A DNA stretch of 64,000 nucleotides from positions 19,960 to 83,959 of IMG/VR virus record IMGVR_UViG_3300036823_000156; one strand, given 5' to 3'. The position numbers and the translations under genes are program-made. The notes under the pieces were generated by a model. It saw only the letters and a program-made list of their open reading frames with translations, made no database searches and was not told the origin of the DNA. Source of the stretch: a virus. Below, piece by piece: positions 605 through 58,339 of the stretch (position 1 is its first letter; each line of letters starts with the position of its first letter).

Positions 605-3600
605 CGCGGGAGGCTCCTCCTCGTTCAAGATCGCCGACGCCTACGTCCTGGTCGGCGCGAACCTGGACGAGCGCTCCGTCGAGCAGACGGTCACCTCGGC
701 GCAGCGGCAGATCAGCCGGTCCGCGCTGAACCTCAAGGTCACGCTGGACAAGCGCAGCCTCAACGACGCCGTCACCACGACGCGGGCGTCGGTCAAGGAA
801 CTCGGGACCGATCTCAAGGTCAAGTTGGGGATCAACCTCGACGACAAGTCCCTGGCCGACACCGCGTTGGCCGTGGAGGCCGCGGCCGACACGATGAGTC
901 GCACGTCCGGGGTCAACCTGCACGTGGGCCTGGACAACACCTCGGTGCTGCGCGCGGGCGCCGACCTCAAGGCCGTCACCCGCGTCATGGGCACCCAGGA
1001 CGCGATCAACCTGCGGGTCAACAGCTCCGGGCTGTCCGAAGCCGACAACGAGGTGCAGTCCTTTTCCAACCGCTGGACGCGCCTGGCCAAGTTGATCACA
1101 GCCGGCGCACTGATCGGCGCCGGTCCGCTCGAAGCGGTCGGCCTGGCCACGGTCATCGCCGGGTTCGGTGCGCTGGCCATCGCGGCCGAGGCCAGCAACA
1201 AGGACGTCAAGGCCTCGTTCAAGGACATGACCGCCTCCGCCAAGCAGACGGCGGCCGAGGGGTTCTCGCCGGTCATCCCCCAGCTGGTGTCGCTGGGCGA
1301 GCAGGCCAAGACCACGATCAGCGGTCTGGAACCCGCCTTCCAGCGTGCCGGCCTGGCGATCTCGCCGATCCTGGGCACCATCGGCACCGATCTGCTGGAA
1401 TCCGTGCAACGCGGCGTCGAGGGGGCCGAGCCCCAGCTGAACAAGCTGCCGCCGCTGGCCAGCTCGATCGGCAACTCGTTCAACACCCTCGAACACGGTG
1501 TCGGCGGGTTCGTCAACAACATCGACGTCAGCAAGGCCGTACACGGCTGGGACACGCTGACCGTCGCGGTCGGGCAGCTGCTGCCGGCCCTGTCGATCTT
1601 GCTGAACACCGCCGAGCCGGTCGGCTCCGCGCTGTTGCAGATCGTGGGCGGCGCGGTCTCCACCCTGTTCCGCGAGATCGGCGAACTCAACCCGGAGATG
1701 CAGGCCGCCGGGGCGATCTTCTCCTTCATCGGCCCCGCCATCTCGGTGGTCGGGCCGCCGCTGCTGGCGGTCGCCGCCGGCACGCGGCTACTGACCGGTA
1801 GCTGGACCGACTTCGCCGGGGCCGGCACCAAGCTCAAGGGCATCGTCACCGGCATGCCCGGCATCATCGAGCAGTTGGGCCAGAAGTTCGGCTACACCAC
1901 GGCCGCCGCCAACCAGGCGGCCAAGGCGTCGGCCGAGGTCGCGCTGAACACCGCGCTGGAGTCCAAAGCGGTCGACGAGGCCGTCGTCGCCGAGGCGGCC
2001 GACGCGGTGGCCCAGGAGGACAGCGCCAAGAACGCGCAGTCCCTCTCGATCGCCAAGAAGCAACTGGCCGCGTCCACGGTCGAAGCCACCGAGGCGCAGA
2101 AGGCGTTCGACGCCACCACCGAGGAGTCCACCTTCGCGATGGGACCGCTCGGCCTGGCGCTGGGTGTGGTGACGGCCGGACTGCTGCTGTTCTCCGGTCG
2201 GTCCAAGGACGCCTCCGAGCCCACCCAGGACCTGACCGCCGACCTGGAGCGCCTGGCCGCCGCCGCGCCCGGTGCGACGCAGGGCATCCTGGCCGGCGAC
2301 CCGGCGCTGCAGAAGCTGATCACGGGCGCCAAGAACGCCGGTGTCAACGTGCAGGGCCTGCTGTCGGCCTACCAAGGCGGCACCGGCCCGCTGGACGCGT
2401 TCACCAAACAGCTGCAGAACCAGCAGAAGCAGCTGGGGGACACGCAGGTGTCGATGTCCTCGGTGACCACCGGGATCAAGCTGGGCAACGACCCGGCCGT
2501 GAAGTTCTCCGCCTCCATCGCCCAGTTGGCGGCGGCCGGCAAGCAGCTGTCGGAGAACAACGTCAAGCTGTCACCGCAGCAGCAGGCGCAGATCGCGCAG
2601 TACCGCAACCTCCAGGCCGTCACGGCACAGCTGGGCGTGTCGCAGAAGGCCCTCGCCGGCAATCAGGCCGCGGGCGCCGCGGTCACGCAGACCACGCAGC
2701 AGACGCAGACCCAGTGGAACCACACGATGACCGAGGCCAGCTCCATCACCTCGGCCTACGGCGGCAACCTCACCAGCACCGCGCTGCAGATGCAGAACTT
2801 CGCCGCACAGCAGAAAAACGGCCAGTTCTCGATGGAGGACTTCGTCAAGGCGCAGGTCACCGCGGCCGGCGGGTTCCTGCAGGCACAGGCACAACAGCAG
2901 CAACTCAACGCCGCGGTCACCCAGACCGCCCAAGCCCAGGTGCAGGCCGGTCAGTCGGTCGCGTCGGCCAAGAACCAGGAGCAGCAGGCGATTCTGCAGG
3001 TGGCCGACGCCGAGCACAGCGCGGCACAGTCCGCCGGTGCGGTCACCGACGCCGAGCACTCCTACCAGCAGTCCATTCAGGCCGTGTCCGACGCGAAAAC
3101 CGCGGTGGTCAAGGCACAGCAGCAGGAACACACCGCGCAGCTTCAGTACACACAGGACCTGGCCGCCGCACGCGCCGCCGAACTGGCGCTCTCGGCCGCC
3201 CGCAAGCAGGCGGTGCTGGACCTGCAGGCCGAGCAGCGCCAGGTGCTCGATCAGGGCGACACGGTGGCCCAGGCCGAGTTGCAACTGTTCGACGCACAGC
3301 AGGCGGTCAACAACGCCGGCCTGGCCAACAGCACACTGAAGCTGTCCGACCTGGCCAACACCAAGAACCTCAACACCGCCAACGAACAGTCCTACCAACT
3401 GCTGCTCTCGCTGTCCGAGGCGCAGCACGGACTCAACGACGCCAAGGCCCAACAGGCCCAAGTGGACAGTCAGAACGCCGCCGACCAGAAGAAGGGCGTC
3501 TCGGGCAGCCAGGACGTGCTGACCGCGCAGCAGAACATCGCCCAGGCGCAGAACCAGGTCCAGCAGTCGCAGCAGCAACTGGTGGACAGCAAGGATTCGG

Positions 3601-5120
3601 TCGTCAAGGCCAGCCAGTCGGTGGTGCAGGCCCAGTACGCGGAGAAGCAGGCGCACGACGCGGTCGCCCAGGCCCAGTACGCCGAACAGCAGGCCAACGT
3701 GGCGGTCACCCAGGCCAGTTTCGCTTCGCAGCAGGCGACCCAGGCGTTGGCCTCGGCGAATCTGCAGGCGCAGCAGGCCTCGATCGCCCACAAGACCGCG
3801 GTACAGCAGGCCAGCGGATCGATCGACATCAACACCCAGGCCGGCAACCGCAACGTCACCACCCTGCTGCAACTCTACGACAACCAGATCGCGGCCGGTA
3901 AGTCGACCGACCAGGCGCGCACCGCGGTGGAGAAGGAAGGCGTCCAGCTCGGCATCACCAAGGGCGACGTGGACAAGGTCCTGGGGTCGATCAAGAACAT
4001 CCAGGGCAAGACCGCGACGTTCGGCGTGGTCGGCACGCCCTCGGTCAACCTGTCCGAGCTGATCAACGCGGCGAGCAAGCAAGGTCTCAACCCGCGCACG
4101 CTGGGCTTCACCACCTCCGAGATCGGCAACGCCCGGGCCAGCGGGTCGGGCAGCTTCCCGACGCACGGCGCGGCCACCGGTGGCCTGATCAAGGGCCCGG
4201 GCACCAGCACGTCGGACTCGATCATGGGAGTCAGCCGCGCGGGGGTGCCCACGGCCTGGGTGAGCCCGGACGAGTACGTGGTCAACGCCAAGGCCACCTC
4301 GATGTTCCTGCCGCAGCTGGAGGCCCTCAACGCCGCCGGGCTGCCGGGCCGGGCCTCCGGTGGTCTGGCCGGCGACGGCAAGGCGATCGTGTCGGCCAAC
4401 CTGATGCTGACCGAGGTCGGCGCCATGATGCACTCCGCTCGCGAGGCCTTCCTCAAATCCGGCATCGCCAGTTCCCTGCCGGACTTCGCGCCCAAGAACC
4501 CGCCCGAGCCGGACTTCTCGGCGCTGGGCGCGGGCGGCGACACCGGGTCGCACGGCGCGGCCCAGGCCGCGGCCCAGGCCTACGCGGCGAGCGTGTTGAG
4601 TGCGCACGGATGGAGCTCCGCCCAGATGGCTCCCCTGATCAAACTGTGGAACCAGGAGTCGGGCTGGCAGTGGTGGGCGCTCAACAGCTCCAGTGGCGCC
4701 TACGGCATCCCGCAGTCCCTTCCGGCCAGCAAGATGGCGTCGGCCGGTCCGGACTGGCGCACCAACGCGCGCACGCAGATCAACTGGGGCCTGGGGTACA
4801 TTCAAGATCGTTACGGCTCGCCAGCAGCGGCATGGGCGCACGAGATCGGCTACAACTGGTACGACGAGGGCGGCGTCCTGCCCAAGGGCCTGTCGATGTC
4901 GCTGAATCAGACCGGCGCCAACGAGCACAAGGCCGTGTTCAGCACGGCGCAGTGGAACGCGCTGGGGGCCCTGGCCTCGGCGGTGCAGAGCGGCACGAGC
5001 GGCAAGACGGTCCAGATCCACAACCACTTCCTGGTGGAGTCCATGTCGGTCGCCAACGCCGTCGCGGCGCAGGCCTCGGCACAGACCAGCTGGGACCTCG
5101 CGACGAGCCTGGGGGCGTGA
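597..5120 (+). CDS. tape measure protein with C-terminal lytic transglycosylase-like domain
   Basis: At 1507 residues this is the longest gene in the window, and it sits directly after the frameshifted chaperone, which identifies it as the tape measure protein that sets tail length. Using about 1.5 Angstrom per helical residue, a tail near 220 nm would be expected (inference). Hydrophobic glycine/alanine-rich segments lie near residues 160-200, and a long Gln/Ala-rich coiled-coil region covers roughly 740-1100. Near residues 1330-1425 there is an SLT/lysozyme-like fold with a probable catalytic Glu around 1352 (in 'WNQESGW'), followed by 'GAYGIPQ' and 'GLGYIQDRYG'. This domain probably opens peptidoglycan during DNA injection. 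The GTG start overlaps the chaperone stop. Confidence 0.95.
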   Translation: MTSAGGSSSFKIADAYVLVGANLDERSVEQTVTSAQRQISRSALNLKVTLDKRSLNDAVTTTRASVKELGTDLKVKLGINLDDKSLADTALAVEAAADTMSRTSGVNLHVGLDNTSVLRAGADLKAVTRVMGTQDAINLRVNSSGLSEADNEVQSFSNRWTRLAKLITAGALIGAGPLEAVGLATVIAGFGALAIAAEASNKDVKASFKDMTASAKQTAAEGFSPVIPQLVSLGEQAKTTISGLEPAFQRAGLAISPILGTIGTDLLESVQRGVEGAEPQLNKLPPLASSIGNSFNTLEHGVGGFVNNIDVSKAVHGWDTLTVAVGQLLPALSILLNTAEPVGSALLQIVGGAVSTLFREIGELNPEMQAAGAIFSFIGPAISVVGPPLLAVAAGTRLLTGSWTDFAGAGTKLKGIVTGMPGIIEQLGQKFGYTTAAANQAAKASAEVALNTALESKAVDEAVVAEAADAVAQEDSAKNAQSLSIAKKQLAASTVEATEAQKAFDATTEESTFAMGPLGLALGVVTAGLLLFSGRSKDASEPTQDLTADLERLAAAAPGATQGILAGDPALQKLITGAKNAGVNVQGLLSAYQGGTGPLDAFTKQLQNQQKQLGDTQVSMSSVTTGIKLGNDPAVKFSASIAQLAAAGKQLSENNVKLSPQQQAQIAQYRNLQAVTAQLGVSQKALAGNQAAGAAVTQTTQQTQTQWNHTMTEASSITSAYGGNLTSTALQMQNFAAQQKNGQFSMEDFVKAQVTAAGGFLQAQAQQQQLNAAVTQTAQAQVQAGQSVASAKNQEQQAILQVADAEHSAAQSAGAVTDAEHSYQQSIQAVSDAKTAVVKAQQQEHTAQLQYTQDLAAARAAELALSAARKQAVLDLQAEQRQVLDQGDTVAQAELQLFDAQQAVNNAGLANSTLKLSDLANTKNLNTANEQSYQLLLSLSEAQHGLNDAKAQQAQVDSQNAADQKKGVSGSQDVLTAQQNIAQAQNQVQQSQQQLVDSKDSVVKASQSVVQAQYAEKQAHDAVAQAQYAEQQANVAVTQASFASQQATQALASANLQAQQASIAHKTAVQQASGSIDINTQAGNRNVTTLLQLYDNQIAAGKSTDQARTAVEKEGVQLGITKGDVDKVLGSIKNIQGKTATFGVVGTPSVNLSELINAASKQGLNPRTLGFTTSEIGNARASGSGSFPTHGAATGGLIKGPGTSTSDSIMGVSRAGVPTAWVSPDEYVVNAKATSMFLPQLEALNAAGLPGRASGGLAGDGKAIVSANLMLTEVGAMMHSAREAFLKSGIASSLPDFAPKNPPEPDFSALGAGGDTGSHGAAQAAAQAYAASVLSAHGWSSAQMAPLIKLWNQESGWQWWALNSSSGAYGIPQSLPASKMASAGPDWRTNARTQINWGLGYIQDRYGSPAAAWAHEIGYNWYDEGGVLPKGLSMSLNQTGANEHKAVFSTAQWNALGALASAVQSGTSGKTVQIHNHFLVESMSVANAVAAQASAQTSWDLATSLGA

Positions 5121-19670: not shown

Positions 19671-20240
19671 TCACGTCTCGACGACTTCGTTGGCGCTGGC
19701 CCGGTAGGTCAGCTCCTCGGGAAGCTTCAGGGCGCCTCGGCGCAGCAGTCGGATGTCGTTGGTGGACAGTCGCAGCCGGTAGCCCCGAGGGGCGCCCTGC
19801 ACGAGCTGTGGCCACAGGATGGGCATGTCGGCCGGAGTGCCCGGCCACTGCGGCGCGTACTCACGACGGGACCGGATCAGCTGGCTGCGGTGGCTGCGGT
19901 GGATGTGCAGGTCGCCCAGCCACGGCGGGTTCAGCAGCTCGTCGCCGCCGTTCTCCAGATCCGTCCCGGTGGTGGCCAGCAGATCGGTGTCCAGGTCGGG
20001 CAGTGAGTGGTTCCGGTTGGTGACCAGCTCGTTGGCCATCATCAGGCCGTGGATGCACAGCCGCCACTGGTACGGCCCCCACATCGAGATCGCCAGAAAC
20101 CGCTTGTTCGTGGGAGAGTCGGGAGGCGCGAGGAGCAGCCGCAGCACCTCGGTCGAGGTCTCCACCTGCTCGACCAGATCCTCGTCAGTCAGGGACTGGG
20201 CCGCTTTGCCCGGCTCGATATGCGGCATCCAGGTGATCAT
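19671..20240 (-). CDS. pyrimidine-dimer DNA glycosylase-like protein (MSMEG_6728 family)
   Basis: The 189-residue protein starts 'MITWMPHIEPGKAAQSL', followed by a 'WGPYQWRLCIHGLMMANEL' helix and then 'PPWLGDLHIHRSHRSQLIR' near residue 118, with 'PGTPADMPILWP' near 145. This order matches the small actinobacterial family annotated as pyrimidine dimer DNA glycosylase. Related enzymes of the T4 endonuclease V type cut at UV-induced dimers. Whether this one is active is unknown. The longer upstream reading frame is rejected because it is Arg-rich and lacks a ribosome binding site. Confidence 0.6.
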   Translation of the reverse strand: MITWMPHIEPGKAAQSLTDEDLVEQVETSTEVLRLLLAPPDSPTNKRFLAISMWGPYQWRLCIHGLMMANELVTNRNHSLPDLDTDLLATTGTDLENGGDELLNPPWLGDLHIHRSHRSQLIRSRREYAPQWPGTPADMPILWPQLVQGAPRGYRLRLSTNDIRLLRRGALKLPEELTYRASANEVVET

Positions 20241-55040: not shown

Positions 55041-55494
55041 GCTGCTGGACGTCATCATGGTGCTGGAAGTTCTGGTCGCCGCGCTGGGGCTGGTCTTCGG
55101 AATGGTCAACCACGGCGCCGTCTACGGGACGCGCCAACACCTCTACACCCAGTTCCGCGGTGGCGCGGTCGTCCTGGTGATCTTCGCGTTCCTGGCCTAC
55201 GGCCTGTGGATCACCTACGCGTTGGCCACCGGGCTGTGGCAGTTCATCGTGATCTTCACGCTGCCGCTGGCGCTCAAGATGGCCTACCGGCGGATCGGCC
55301 GCACGCGCGGTCGCAAGGCCGACGCCGTGGCGATCGTCCCGGCCAAGATCGGCACCGTGATCCTGTGCGAGGACCGGGTGTTCCGGTTGGACAGCATGCA
55401 GGCCGACGGCCGGTTCGACACCGCCTCGCTGATGTTCGTCAGCTCGGGCCCGAAGTACCCGACGGTGGTGGATGCCCGTGCTGCGCAAAGGTGA
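55027..55494 (+). CDS. membrane protein, 155 aa
   Basis: ATG 55027, overlapping the previous gene by 14 bases. Spans near 6-25, 46-64 and 68-86 ('AVVLVIFAFLAYGLWITYAL'), then a soluble part of about 65 residues. No family recognised. Confidence 0.6.
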   Translation: MAVSELLDVIMVLEVLVAALGLVFGMVNHGAVYGTRQHLYTQFRGGAVVLVIFAFLAYGLWITYALATGLWQFIVIFTLPLALKMAYRRIGRTRGRKADAVAIVPAKIGTVILCEDRVFRLDSMQADGRFDTASLMFVSSGPKYPTVVDARAAQR

Positions 55495-55795
55495 GGTGCT
55501 CGATGCCGACCTGCCGATGTCCTGGGCACTGGAGGTGACCGGGCGGACGCTGCTGCTGCTGTGCCGCGACGTCGAGCCCGGCGAGGGCCTGGGTGCCGTT
55601 CTGGTGCGGGTGATCCGGGGCTACCCGAACGACCACATGGGCTGGGTGGCCGTGCCCAAGACGCTGTTCGACCGACAGCTCTGGGTCGACCTGCGGCCCC
55701 TGCTGCCGCTGCGGCTGGTGCCGCGCCTGGAAGTGCTGATCGCGTGCGACAAGCACAACACGGAATTCGAGGAGCTGCTGTGCCTGTCGAACTGA
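55472..55795 (+). CDS. hypothetical protein, 107 aa
   Basis: Overlaps the previous gene by 23 bases. Beta-rich ('MSWALEVTGRTLLLLCRD', 'LLPLRLVPRLEVLIACDK'). Its last codons overlap the GTG of the helicase gene. Unknown. Confidence 0.55.
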   Translation: MPVLRKGEVLDADLPMSWALEVTGRTLLLLCRDVEPGEGLGAVLVRVIRGYPNDHMGWVAVPKTLFDRQLWVDLRPLLPLRLVPRLEVLIACDKHNTEFEELLCLSN

Positions 55796-57972
55796 CCGAG
55801 GAACAGACCAAGGCGGTGGACCTGTGTGCCAGCCGCCTGCGGTCCAGGATCCCACTGTCCACCTTGTTCGGTCCGGCTGGCTGTGTGGCCGGGGAGACCG
55901 AGCTGTGGGACCCGGTGGCGATGCGTGGACGCCGCATCGACGAGTTGGAAGCGACAGGGGCTCGCCCCTGGGTGCAGACGCTCGCCGGTCCGGTATTGGC
56001 CGAGGTGCCGTTCAAGAAAGGTGTCGCGGATCTCTATCGAATCGTGCTGGCTTCCGGGCGATCTCTTGTCGCGACCGCTGATCATCTGTGTCTGACGCCA
56101 GACGGATGGACCTTCGTCGGTTCGCTCGCGCCGGGCAAGGCACTCCTGTCAGGGTCGCCTTCAGATGAGCCGCGTTGTTCGGAAACAGCCGAAGGTTGCA
56201 TGGATCGTTGTTGCTCGTGTTCTGGTCAATATGATCCACTACTTCCTCGTGGGTCAGTGGCCGACCGAGCGTTTTCGCCATCACGATCCGGTGTTCTCGC
56301 ACATATCCATGGCTGTTCGCCTCGGGATGACCAGGAACCCACAGCAGGACGTAGCCGTGCTTGTCCAGCACCCGACCCCCGCGCCATGCCGGATTCGAGC
56401 GGCCCGATGTGTTGCGTGCCATCGGATGGTCGCTGGGCGGCTGCCGCCACACTGGTCGCTGGATGCCGTGACGAGTCAGGTAGCTGCGAACAGCACTCTG
56501 GTTCGTCCCAACGGTCCGACCGATGGCATCGAGCGTCGCGCCTGCTTCCGCCATCCGCACGACTACTTCGTGTTGCTTCTCGCACGCACCCACTCGGCCG
56601 TGTCGGGACCAGTGCGAGTGATCGCGCGAGACATCTCGCGCTTTCAGGCCGTGGCGTTTCAGGTATTTATGCACCGTTGAGCGGTCGACGTGCAGAAGCC
56701 CAGCTATCTGCAGAGCACTCCAGCCTTGGTCGATCTTGGACAGGATCTCCTCGTGGCGCAGCGCAAGATCAGGCGATCGGCGGCGTTGTCTCTCATTATC
56801 GGTCACAGTGGGAACCTATCATCAGTGTCAGCTACGTGCGCACGGACACGTACTACGACCTGCATGTTCCTGGTGAGGAGCACTATCTGGCTGACGGAAT
56901 CTGGTCACACAACACGGGCAAGACCGAGGTGGCCCGGCACATCGCCGCGCGGCTGGGCGGGGACGTGGCGTTCTGCGCGCCGACCGGCAAGGCGGCGCTG
57001 GTGCTGCGCAACCGGGGCGTGCCGGCCAGCACCGTGCACTCGCTGATCTACCGGCCGCTGGGCGTGTCGCAGCGGATGCTGGAGGAGGCGCAGCGCAAGC
57101 TGGGCGACGCCGAACGCCGGGGCAACCAGCGGCTGTCCCTGGCGCTGCGGGCGGAGATCACCAAGCTGATCGAGATGGTCAACTCGCCCAAGTTCGTGCT
57201 GCGGGAGAAGGAGGAGGTCGGCCCCTACTCGGCCATCGTGGTGGACGAGTCCAGCATGGTCAGTGAGGAGATGCTGACCGACCTGATGTCCTTCGGCATC
57301 CCGGTGCTGGCGCTGGGGGACCCGGCCCAGCTGCCGCCCGTCAAGGCGACCACCCCGCTGGCCGAGGTCGGCTACCGGCCGACGGTGATGCTGACCCAGA
57401 TGCACCGCTTCGCGTTGGAGAGCCCGATCAACCGGCTGGCCACCGAGGTTCGGATGGCCCGCAACCCCCGGGCGATCAGTTCGTGGCTGCCGGAGGGCAG
57501 CGGCGTCAACATGGTCAGGACGTTCCTGTTCACCGACGAGCAGGCGGCCGGCCTGCTGGCCTGGGACCAGGTCCTGTGCGGACGCAACGCCACCCGTATC
57601 AGGTTGAACGCGCAGCTGCGTTCGATCAAGGGCCTGCCGCACAACGAGCTGGACGACGAGGACCGGATGATCTGCCTGCGCAACGACCCCCAGCACGACC
57701 TGGTCAACGGCGAGCAGTACACGGTGAAGGAGCTCGCCGCCAACGACGTCCCCGAACGGATGATCACCTCGGTCGAGGGCTGGACGGCCGAGAACGTACG
57801 CCCCCAGTTCGCGTTCGGCTACGTCTCCACCGTCCACAAGGCACAGGGCAGCGAGTGGGACAACGTGGTGATCTTCGACGAGAGCCAGATCTTCCGGCAG
57901 GACGACTGGAAGTGGCTCTACACCGGGATCACCCGCGCGGCCAAGGCGGTCTGCGTGGTGCGCTGTGCCTAG
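55780..57972 (+). CDS. RecD-like SF1B helicase interrupted by an intein in Walker A
   Basis: GTG 55780 with GAGGAG upstream, 730 codons. Before the insertion: 'LTEEQTKAVDLCASRLR' and 'LFGPAG'. After it: 'TGKTEVARHIAARLGG', so the ATP-binding loop is cut between Gly and Thr. Then follow 'IVVDESSMVSEEM' (motif II), 'ALGDPAQLPPV' (III), 'QMHRF' and, near the end, 'VSTVHKAQGSEW' and 'YTGITRAAKAV' (V and VI), the RecD/UvrD_C_2 pattern. The mature helicase would have 386 residues after a 344-residue intein is removed. A 5'-3' helicase role in replication or recombination is inferred from family. Confidence 0.9.
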   Translation: MPVELTEEQTKAVDLCASRLRSRIPLSTLFGPAGCVAGETELWDPVAMRGRRIDELEATGARPWVQTLAGPVLAEVPFKKGVADLYRIVLASGRSLVATADHLCLTPDGWTFVGSLAPGKALLSGSPSDEPRCSETAEGCMDRCCSCSGQYDPLLPRGSVADRAFSPSRSGVLAHIHGCSPRDDQEPTAGRSRACPAPDPRAMPDSSGPMCCVPSDGRWAAAATLVAGCRDESGSCEQHSGSSQRSDRWHRASRLLPPSARLLRVASRTHPLGRVGTSASDRARHLALSGRGVSGIYAPLSGRRAEAQLSAEHSSLGRSWTGSPRGAAQDQAIGGVVSHYRSQWEPIISVSYVRTDTYYDLHVPGEEHYLADGIWSHNTGKTEVARHIAARLGGDVAFCAPTGKAALVLRNRGVPASTVHSLIYRPLGVSQRMLEEAQRKLGDAERRGNQRLSLALRAEITKLIEMVNSPKFVLREKEEVGPYSAIVVDESSMVSEEMLTDLMSFGIPVLALGDPAQLPPVKATTPLAEVGYRPTVMLTQMHRFALESPINRLATEVRMARNPRAISSWLPEGSGVNMVRTFLFTDEQAAGLLAWDQVLCGRNATRIRLNAQLRSIKGLPHNELDDEDRMICLRNDPQHDLVNGEQYTVKELAANDVPERMITSVEGWTAENVRPQFAFGYVSTVHKAQGSEWDNVVIFDESQIFRQDDWKWLYTGITRAAKAVCVVRCA
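55882..56913 (+). mobile_element. intein with antisense homing endonuclease gene
   Basis: Block A begins with Cys ('CVAGETELWDP'). Block B has the Thr-x-x-His signature ('GRSLVATADHLCLTPDGWTF'). At the other end block F ('YYDLHVPGEEHYLADGI') and block G ('WSHN' before Thr) are present, so all splicing residues are kept. The 220 codons between the N-part (to about 56150) and the C-part (from about 56813) read as Ser/Arg/Ala-rich sequence without motifs in the sense frame. On the other strand the same bases encode an HNH endonuclease. Confidence 0.9.
56012..56806 (-). CDS. HNH homing endonuclease encoded antisense within the intein
   Basis: From GTG 56806 the minus strand encodes 264 residues. 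The N-terminal third has two HTH-like segments ('WSALQIAGLLHVDRSTVHKY' and 'DAIGRTVGTNQSAVRSYLTR'). Then comes 'GYVREHRIVMAKTLGRPL' and 'EEVVDHIDQNTSNNDPCNLR', the HNH_3 core with His, Asp-His and Asn in place. The last 50 codons overlap the N-terminal splicing region on the other strand. The combination of DNA-reading helices and HNH core is that of free-standing homing endonucleases of phages. Its target would be the uninterrupted Walker A site of the helicase. Confidence 0.85.
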   Translation of the reverse strand: MTDNERQRRRSPDLALRHEEILSKIDQGWSALQIAGLLHVDRSTVHKYLKRHGLKARDVSRDHSHWSRHGRVGACEKQHEVVVRMAEAGATLDAIGRTVGTNQSAVRSYLTRHGIQRPVWRQPPSDHPMARNTSGRSNPAWRGGRVLDKHGYVLLWVPGHPEANSHGYVREHRIVMAKTLGRPLTHEEVVDHIDQNTSNNDPCNLRLFPNNAAHLKATLTGVPCPARANRRRSIRLASDTDDQRSRQEIARKPARFDRDPRHLS

Positions 57973-58339
57973 GTGGAAGTGGCGGCACAGCAAGGAAGTG
58001 CTGGACCGCATCGACACGCTGATCGGCCGGCGCTGCTGGCTGTGCGGTGCGGCGGGCGGTTTCTGCCGGGACGTGTGCCGGGTCGAGAGTGGCCGGCAGT
58101 GGGAGTTCCGAGTGAACATCCCGTCTGAGTACGTGGTCTGCGACGAGTCGAATGTCGCATCTCCCGAGGCAGTGGCCGCTTTCGAGCGGCGTCAGCGGGC
58201 CCCCGCGCCCGCTTTCCGGCGGCCACCCGTGATCAGCGTGCAGACGGGCCCGGCACGCATGTACGTGGCTGCTCCGGGCGATCCGGAATGGCACGACATC
58301 GGATGGACAACCAACGATCTCCTTGGAAGGAGTCTTTAG
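57965..58339 (+). CDS. zinc-binding-like protein, 124 aa
   Basis: GTG 57965 overlaps the helicase stop. 'RRCWLCGAAGGFCRDVC' near 22-38 has four Cys in a zinc-ribbon-like order. The rest is beta-rich. Coupled to the helicase. Confidence 0.55.
   Translation: MPRWKWRHSKEVLDRIDTLIGRRCWLCGAAGGFCRDVCRVESGRQWEFRVNIPSEYVVCDESNVASPEAVAAFERRQRAPAPAFRRPPVISVQTGPARMYVAAPGDPEWHDIGWTTNDLLGRSL

Follow-up and report, generated by a model that had tools for sequence, protein, structure and literature searches.

The usual definition of a mobile intein includes a nuclease fused in frame to the splicing domain. The fractured genes of Dassa et al. 2009 reportedly depart from this layout, in that the intein is split and its two halves are separated by an endonuclease gene that stands on its own. 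Nuclease genes hidden in other hosts are known as well: same-strand but out-of-frame HNH genes lie within phage methylase genes, as in phage ShiLan (PMC11855218), and antisense homing-endonuclease genes occur in the nuclear group I introns Dir.S956-2 and Dsq.L2066 of Didymium (PMC9548176). Here we analyzed a 64,000-nucleotide stretch of viral DNA, referred to as the window (positions 19,960 to 83,959 of the 83,959-base IMG/VR record IMGVR_UViG_3300036823_000156; GC content, 67%), in which a helicase gene is interrupted by an intein and an HNH endonuclease gene is encoded on the strand opposite to this intein. On the basis of sequence comparison and structure prediction, we consider it very likely that the element is a mobile intein made up of two genes on opposite strands.

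Results

A helicase intein with an HNH gene on its opposite strand

The host gene of the intein, on the plus strand at positions 55780 to 57972, encodes the precursor of a Dda/RecD-like superfamily 1 helicase, as judged from its sequence and from matches to AAA_30 (E = 1.2e-20) and UvrD_C_2 (E = 2.3e-16) in Pfam and to the Dda-like helicase family in PHROG (E = 1e-69). Translation likely starts at the GTG at 55780, which is preceded by AGGAG, and the intein is flanked by an N-extein of 34 residues and a C-extein of 352 residues. The intein itself, 344 residues long and of the Cys type (55882 to 56913, plus strand), splits GPAG from TGKT in the Walker A motif of the helicase. It displays the features of a class 1 intein, namely, Cys1 (codon TGT, 55882 to 55884), a TxxH block B (TADH, containing H68), the block F aspartate (D326), a terminal H343-N344 (56908 to 56913), a threonine at position +1 (codon ACG at 56914), and a HINT fold. 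Among 51 aligned relatives, C1, H68, and N344 were invariant, while D326 and H343 were nearly so. The Pfam profile Intein_splicing matched residues 47 to 344 with an E value of 3.6e-5 and a score of 24.0 bits, which is below its curated cutoff of 35.8 bits.

AlphaFold2, given an alignment with 50 relatives, assembled the HINT fold from residues 1 to 93 and 302 to 344, with a predicted local distance difference test score (pLDDT) of 95 to 98, and Foldseek returned the mini-inteins of Mtu RecA and Npu DnaB as structural matches (E of about 3e-7). The two halves of the splicing domain, IntN (residues 1 to 93; 55882 to 56160, plus strand; pLDDT 95 to 98) and IntC (residues 302 to 344; 56785 to 56913, plus strand; pLDDT 96 to 98), lie in one reading frame, so that the intein of the window is contiguous rather than split. 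They are joined by a stop-free read-through linker of about 208 codons (56161 to 56784, plus strand), which is predicted to be disordered (pLDDT of about 45). A Pfam domain search of this sense insert returned no nuclease match, and the in-frame endonuclease of a canonical bifunctional intein is thus missing from it. A reading of the insert as an RNA intron of group I or II was rejected, since an Rfam search of positions 55400 to 57400 gave no match at an E value of 1 or below.

On the minus strand, an open reading frame (ORF) of 264 residues with a GTG start (56012 to 56806) encodes a predicted HNH homing endonuclease. Its HNH_3 match passed the Pfam cutoff (E = 1.3e-8), and it matched PHROG HNH families with E values down to 1.7e-23. 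The HNH_3 catalytic domain spans residues 172 to 212 (56171 to 56293, minus strand), and H172, R173, H192, N200, N204, and H214 of the antisense protein were invariant in 37 relatives. Two DNA-binding motifs were detected, both on the minus strand: a first helix-turn-helix (HTH) at residues 21 to 51 (56654 to 56746; HTH_23, E = 7.9e-8) and a second, HTH-like motif at residues 76 to 111 (56474 to 56581), which gave a Sigma70_r4-like match below the cutoff (E = 3e-4) and corresponded to three helices of high pLDDT in the model. The antisense protein hence combines an HNH domain with its catalytic residues and a DNA-binding region, as HNH homing endonucleases do. The model of the protein had a pLDDT of 83, and its best match in the PDB was I-HmuI, with a probability of 0.99 but an E value of 0.12. 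The ORF is longer than the actual insert (about 56160 to 56800) and extends beyond it at both ends, with some 47 last codons (56012 to 56151) lying over IntN and the first few over IntC. These results uphold, with the intein at exactly the positions given, what the first-pass annotation, made from the letters alone, had proposed for this locus, that is, a complete Cys-type intein in the helicase frame, a sense insert that is open but free of motifs, and a 264-residue HNH endonuclease with a start of its own on the opposite strand.

The antisense copy accounts for the only HNH_3 match in the whole 83,959-base record, which also contains tail and replication genes. A small Cys-containing ORF (CWLCGAAGGFCRDVC) at 57965 to 58339 on the plus strand overlaps the 3' end of the helicase gene.

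Antisense-HNH inteins recur across viruses

Relatives were collected from viral contigs with the HNH protein as the sole query and then by wider scans, and the intein halves were scored with two hidden Markov models (HMMs). The two best matches to the HNH protein among viral contigs were also antisense and lay within inteins of terminase large subunits (TerL). Overall, 168 loci were obtained. The 137 distinct antisense-HNH inteins that they hold fell into 123 clusters at 95% identity and 104 at 60%; of the 72 loci added to the list by the last scan, 71 were antisense inteins. A scan with alignment A3 yielded two loci of the same architecture in Acidobacteria metagenome-assembled genomes (L090 and L091) and one locus without it. 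Since the loci were selected through the nuclease and nothing else, ascertainment does not account for the open sense frame. In none of the relatives found through the HNH search was the HNH an in-frame part of the intein on the sense strand, the arrangement that the first-pass annotation itself had regarded as speaking against its proposal; one split version and one version with a single stop were found. The composite of antisense HNH and intein is, to judge from the 137 distinct sequences and their single phase, old and widespread and not a one-off.

Nearly all host genes encoded P-loop ATPases; they were mostly TerL genes, but SNF2/DEAD helicase, clamp loader, and AAA+ ATPase genes were also represented, and the insertion fell in the P-loop in 95 of 95 inteins of one set and in 70 of 71 of another. 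An antisense-HNH intein outside the P-loop, between GDTVKNDS and SEIHSVL, was seen at locus L326 (IMGVR_UViG_3300001765_000047).

Cultured phages carry the element too. In Pectobacterium phages Sabo, Ymer, Koroua, Amona, Pappous, and Taid and in Dickeya phage Setonix, it interrupts TerL, which has been deposited as an over-long "hypothetical protein" or left unannotated, and phage Abuela gave the same HNH and TerL matches. For Pseudoalteromonas phage PHS3, a truncated terminase and a separate HNH on the opposite strand are annotated, while the sense frame is open across both. The misannotation of these deposited records can be traced to the antisense-HNH architecture: the PHS3 terminase ends at the intein (KX912252.1, 18604 to 19314; L087), and the Sabo terminase is "hypothetical," with the HNH absent from the record (PQ008974.1, 37606 to 39870; L086).

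Presence and absence of the intein at a conserved site

Among 79 terminase alleles that were 75 to 97% identical to one carrier, 70 lacked the intein and 9 had it exactly between GGNR and SGKS. Likewise, the site occupied in Sabo, between FVAGFG and TGKSQT, is uninterrupted in Serratia phage Susuwatari (FVAGFGSGKSQT). Intein-free alleles at the precise conserved site hence exist in terminase relatives, and since close terminases lack the intein exactly where others carry it, the element appears to be mobile. Its sporadic presence at one terminase site is consistent with homing by the predicted endonuclease.

The splicing domain of the window is about 55% identical to its nearest relatives, which are terminase inteins at the same site between GPAG and TGK, the host proteins being unrelated. 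This suggests transfer between non-homologous P-loop genes, and the window copy probably derived from a terminase with a GPAG-TGK site. A DNA search of phage records detected no relative of the window helicase.

A single antisense phase and its origin

Of the three antisense phases possible, one was common to all antisense-HNH inteins (98 of 98 loci in one set and 71 of 71 in another, some contigs occurring in both sets). The first-pass annotation had supposed that an independent endonuclease gene invaded a mini-intein in reverse; the gene does lie on the opposite strand, but with 137 distinct sequences sharing one phase, the composite goes well beyond an isolated invasion of one mini-intein. 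We rejected the explanation that this phase is the one with the fewest stops, given that in free-standing HNH genes the codon-aligned antisense phase had fewer (3.4 versus 4.8 per 100 codons) but was more hydrophobic. In these same free-standing genes, the antisense frame used by the inteins was the most hydrophilic of the three (Kyte-Doolittle score of -0.37 versus 0.55 and 0.26). Same-strand hidden HNHs of the ShiLan-like kind (10 of 11 loci of the class) also used the more hydrophilic of their frames (-0.86 versus 0.40). We hypothesize that the phase was chosen such that the read-through linker stays soluble and disordered; alternatively, it could have been fixed through common descent.

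These observations also bear on whether the arrangement, while active, had multiple origins, with HNH genes repeatedly invading separate mini-inteins in reverse and the phase reflecting merely the frame that is tolerated. That the frame in use is the most hydrophilic antisense one would agree with such a history, as would the use of the same phase by antisense HNH insertions in methylase genes that have no intein. On the HNH tree, which was built from 87 columns and is poorly resolved, the antisense-intein members did not form one clade, yet their labels were strongly clustered, requiring 14 changes compared to 46.5 after shuffling. In the same way, HNH and intein distances were correlated only moderately (0.34), but the correlation persisted (0.30) when host distance was controlled for. 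Finally, one phase serves all of the distinct inteins although the codon-aligned phase has fewer stops. We therefore regard repeated invasion as rather unlikely, while granting it more weight than the two alternatives considered below.

Constraint on the two strands

The openness of the sense frame was assessed by permuting synonymous codons while retaining the HNH amino acids and codon usage. Under this shuffle, 4.3 sense stops were expected in the core of the window HNH gene and 5.1 in the whole ORF, and only 0.4% and 0.06% of shuffles, respectively, were free of stops. The antisense-intein relatives contained 0 sense stops versus 1.0 to 11.1 expected, and free-standing HNH relatives had sense-equivalent stops at the expected number. 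High GC content as the cause of the openness was rejected, as the same pattern held in genomes with 32 to 48% GC. We conclude that the sense frame is stop-free because the host protein needs to be read through, in agreement with the initial proposal.

Divergence was determined in a set of 18 aligned terminase inteins using five disjoint pairs (L190-L246, L248-L249, L100-L104, L185-L223, and L113-L116). Substitutions at sense positions 1, 2, and 3 numbered 67, 46, and 169 in the splicing domain and 54, 208, and 45 in the HNH region, where sense position 2 corresponds to HNH codon position 3. The pattern was alike among isolated phages, with 2, 14, and 3 changes in the HNH region between Sabo and Koroua. 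The HNH region changes mainly at the third position of HNH codons, so that the antisense protein is preserved whereas the amino acids of the sense insert are free to change. The substitution pattern thus shows purifying selection on the antisense protein, and the sense insert is held only to the absence of stops. Of the selection on both strands originally suggested, the part concerning antisense amino acids was confirmed, while the sense insert turned out to be nearly free in its amino acids. In the window, GC content at sense positions 1, 2, and 3 was 0.65, 0.44, and 0.97 in the C-extein versus 0.69, 0.68, and 0.46 in the insert, showing that the coding signature of the insert is that of the antisense frame. 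In addition, Shine-Dalgarno sequences of at least 5 nucleotides were present at 40 of 81 antisense starts compared to 12 of 81 in shuffles.

Several points weigh against a two-strand mobile intein in the window. Both the selection and the empty-site evidence come from terminase relatives and not from the window's own helicase, of which a scan of viral contigs with the C-extein found no relative with or without an intein. The antisense start of the window is a GTG with a weak Shine-Dalgarno sequence (AGG), and a promoter scan for this gene found nothing convincing, its one weak match having the -10 element inside the ORF. Antisense members provided the training sequences for the intein HMMs, and inteins of very different sequence could therefore escape these models. 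Splicing, antisense expression, site-specific cutting, homing, and transfer from a terminase are, moreover, steps that we infer.

The weak start signals and the outcome of the promoter scan, together with the loss of part of the HNH in some members (such as the 222-residue intein of L061, described below), could also be signs of an antisense HNH that has decayed or is no longer expressed, in which case the element would by now amount to a mini-intein with a junk linker. We consider this improbable in view of the intact and invariant HNH catalytic residues, the strong amino acid constraint on the antisense frame in relatives, the Shine-Dalgarno enrichment at antisense starts, and a base composition of the window insert that tracks antisense codon positions. 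GC-rich DNA such as the window often contains long antisense ORFs, but the chance that this ORF is a mere by-product of an open GC-rich sense frame is negligible, given its specific HNH and HTH domain matches, the same arrangement at 32 to 48% GC, HNH relatives that occur as free-standing genes, and a divergence pattern that already contradicts chance by placing the constraint on antisense and not on sense amino acids.

Split, broken, and related forms

In an AAA+ ATPase gene (L120; IMGVR_UViG_3300049489_001113, 3522 to 4595), in which the insertion lies between GIPG and TGKS, six stops separate IntN from IntC. IntN ends at a TGA, IntC restarts at an ATG behind GAGGTGG, and the antisense HNH lies between the halves, an anatomy by which L120 is a natural split intein. 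The 100-kb record of L120 contains five HNH_3 matches. An otherwise typical antisense-HNH intein, L158 (3795 to 4736), has a single TAA in the sense frame between the HNH and IntC, which may be an error of sequencing or may mark a split intein in the making. The inteins of L061 (3894 to 4559) and L021 (3948 to 4859) are near-identical but measure 222 and 304 residues, respectively, L061 having a large in-frame deletion inside the antisense HNH; the nuclease can, as this pair indicates, be lost while the intein persists. Taken together, L120, L158, and L061 suggest a route from inteins with an antisense homing endonuclease gene (HEG) to fractured genes.

Two other layouts were encountered. At L028, L030, L032, and L035, an antisense HNH lies inside DNA methyltransferase genes, with no intein blocks, an open host frame, and the same phase, making these loci the antisense counterpart of the ShiLan element. 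At L022 (1 to 1200), an intein-like element (NHP..., ending VVHN before a C) carries an out-of-frame HNH on the same strand, which constitutes a third architecture.

Discussion

In the mechanism that we propose, the helicase precursor would be translated through the whole insert, and HINT residues 1 to 93 and 302 to 344 would fold around a disordered linker of about 210 residues. The intein would then excise itself and join GPAG to TGKT, thereby restoring the Walker A motif. From the opposite strand, the HNH endonuclease would be made separately, with its tandem HTH motifs serving in recognition and its HNH domain in nicking or cutting. The presumed target is the uninterrupted Walker A coding sequence in a co-infecting or related phage. 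Repair of the gap would bring in the intein along with the nuclease gene, and the site, now interrupted by the intein, would be shielded from then on. A nuclease that is separate from the intein would be expressed independently of the host gene, and the price of the antisense layout would be that nuclease codons have to avoid sense-strand stops.

An element of this kind offers natural antisense overlapping genes in which selection on each strand is separable and measurable. The architecture accounts for terminases that were deposited as over-long "hypothetical" proteins and for mis-split annotations in phage records, and it hints at how inteins jump between unrelated P-loop ATPases. The hidden class of selfish genes to which the intein of the window belongs is widespread, with at least 137 distinct viral sequences of this layout. 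We propose tentatively, as a possibility that falls somewhat short of an even chance, that antisense-HEG inteins form a major overlooked class of viral mobile inteins, that a most-hydrophilic-frame rule keeps their linker disordered, and that they are a source of natural split inteins by way of a sense stop and an IntC start, as in L120, L158 being perhaps a first step. Such an origin for split inteins would be open to tests in cultured phages.

No description of an antisense-HEG intein was found in the open literature, in line with the first-pass statement that no antisense case was known, with the preprint 10.1101/2025.01.02.630785 and Dassa 2009 as possible exceptions that may hold an earlier one.

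Compared to canonical bifunctional inteins such as PI-SceI and PI-PfuI, the element of the window has the same HINT fold and catalytic residues, an insertion between IntN and IntC, a conserved host site, and presumed homing, but its nuclease is encoded independently by the other strand, and its sense insert is a disordered linker with no detectable amino acid constraint. It would thus work as a mobile intein without the in-frame nuclease that defines the canonical ones. The resemblance to fractured genes lies in a nuclease that is not fused to the splicing domain, and L120 combines this split form with an antisense HNH; in contrast, the window and the 137 distinct sequences are contiguous, with one frame read through. 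ShiLan shares with the window a hidden HNH of the same broad family (about 42 to 43% identity over 76 residues) and a host frame that stays open through it, but its HNH shares the strand of the host gene and is not surrounded by a splicing domain, whereas that of the window is antisense inside a complete intein. I-HmuI-type HNH proteins are the best fold match of the antisense protein, but I-HmuI is encoded by a group I intron, the window protein has tandem N-terminal HTH motifs, and the similarity is only local. A similar strand arrangement is seen in the Didymium group I introns, self-splicing mobile elements whose nuclease gene is likewise antisense to them; these, however, are RNA introns in the ribosomal DNA of eukaryotes, they encode a His-Cys nuclease, and they do not require the open sense frame that the helicase intein has to maintain.
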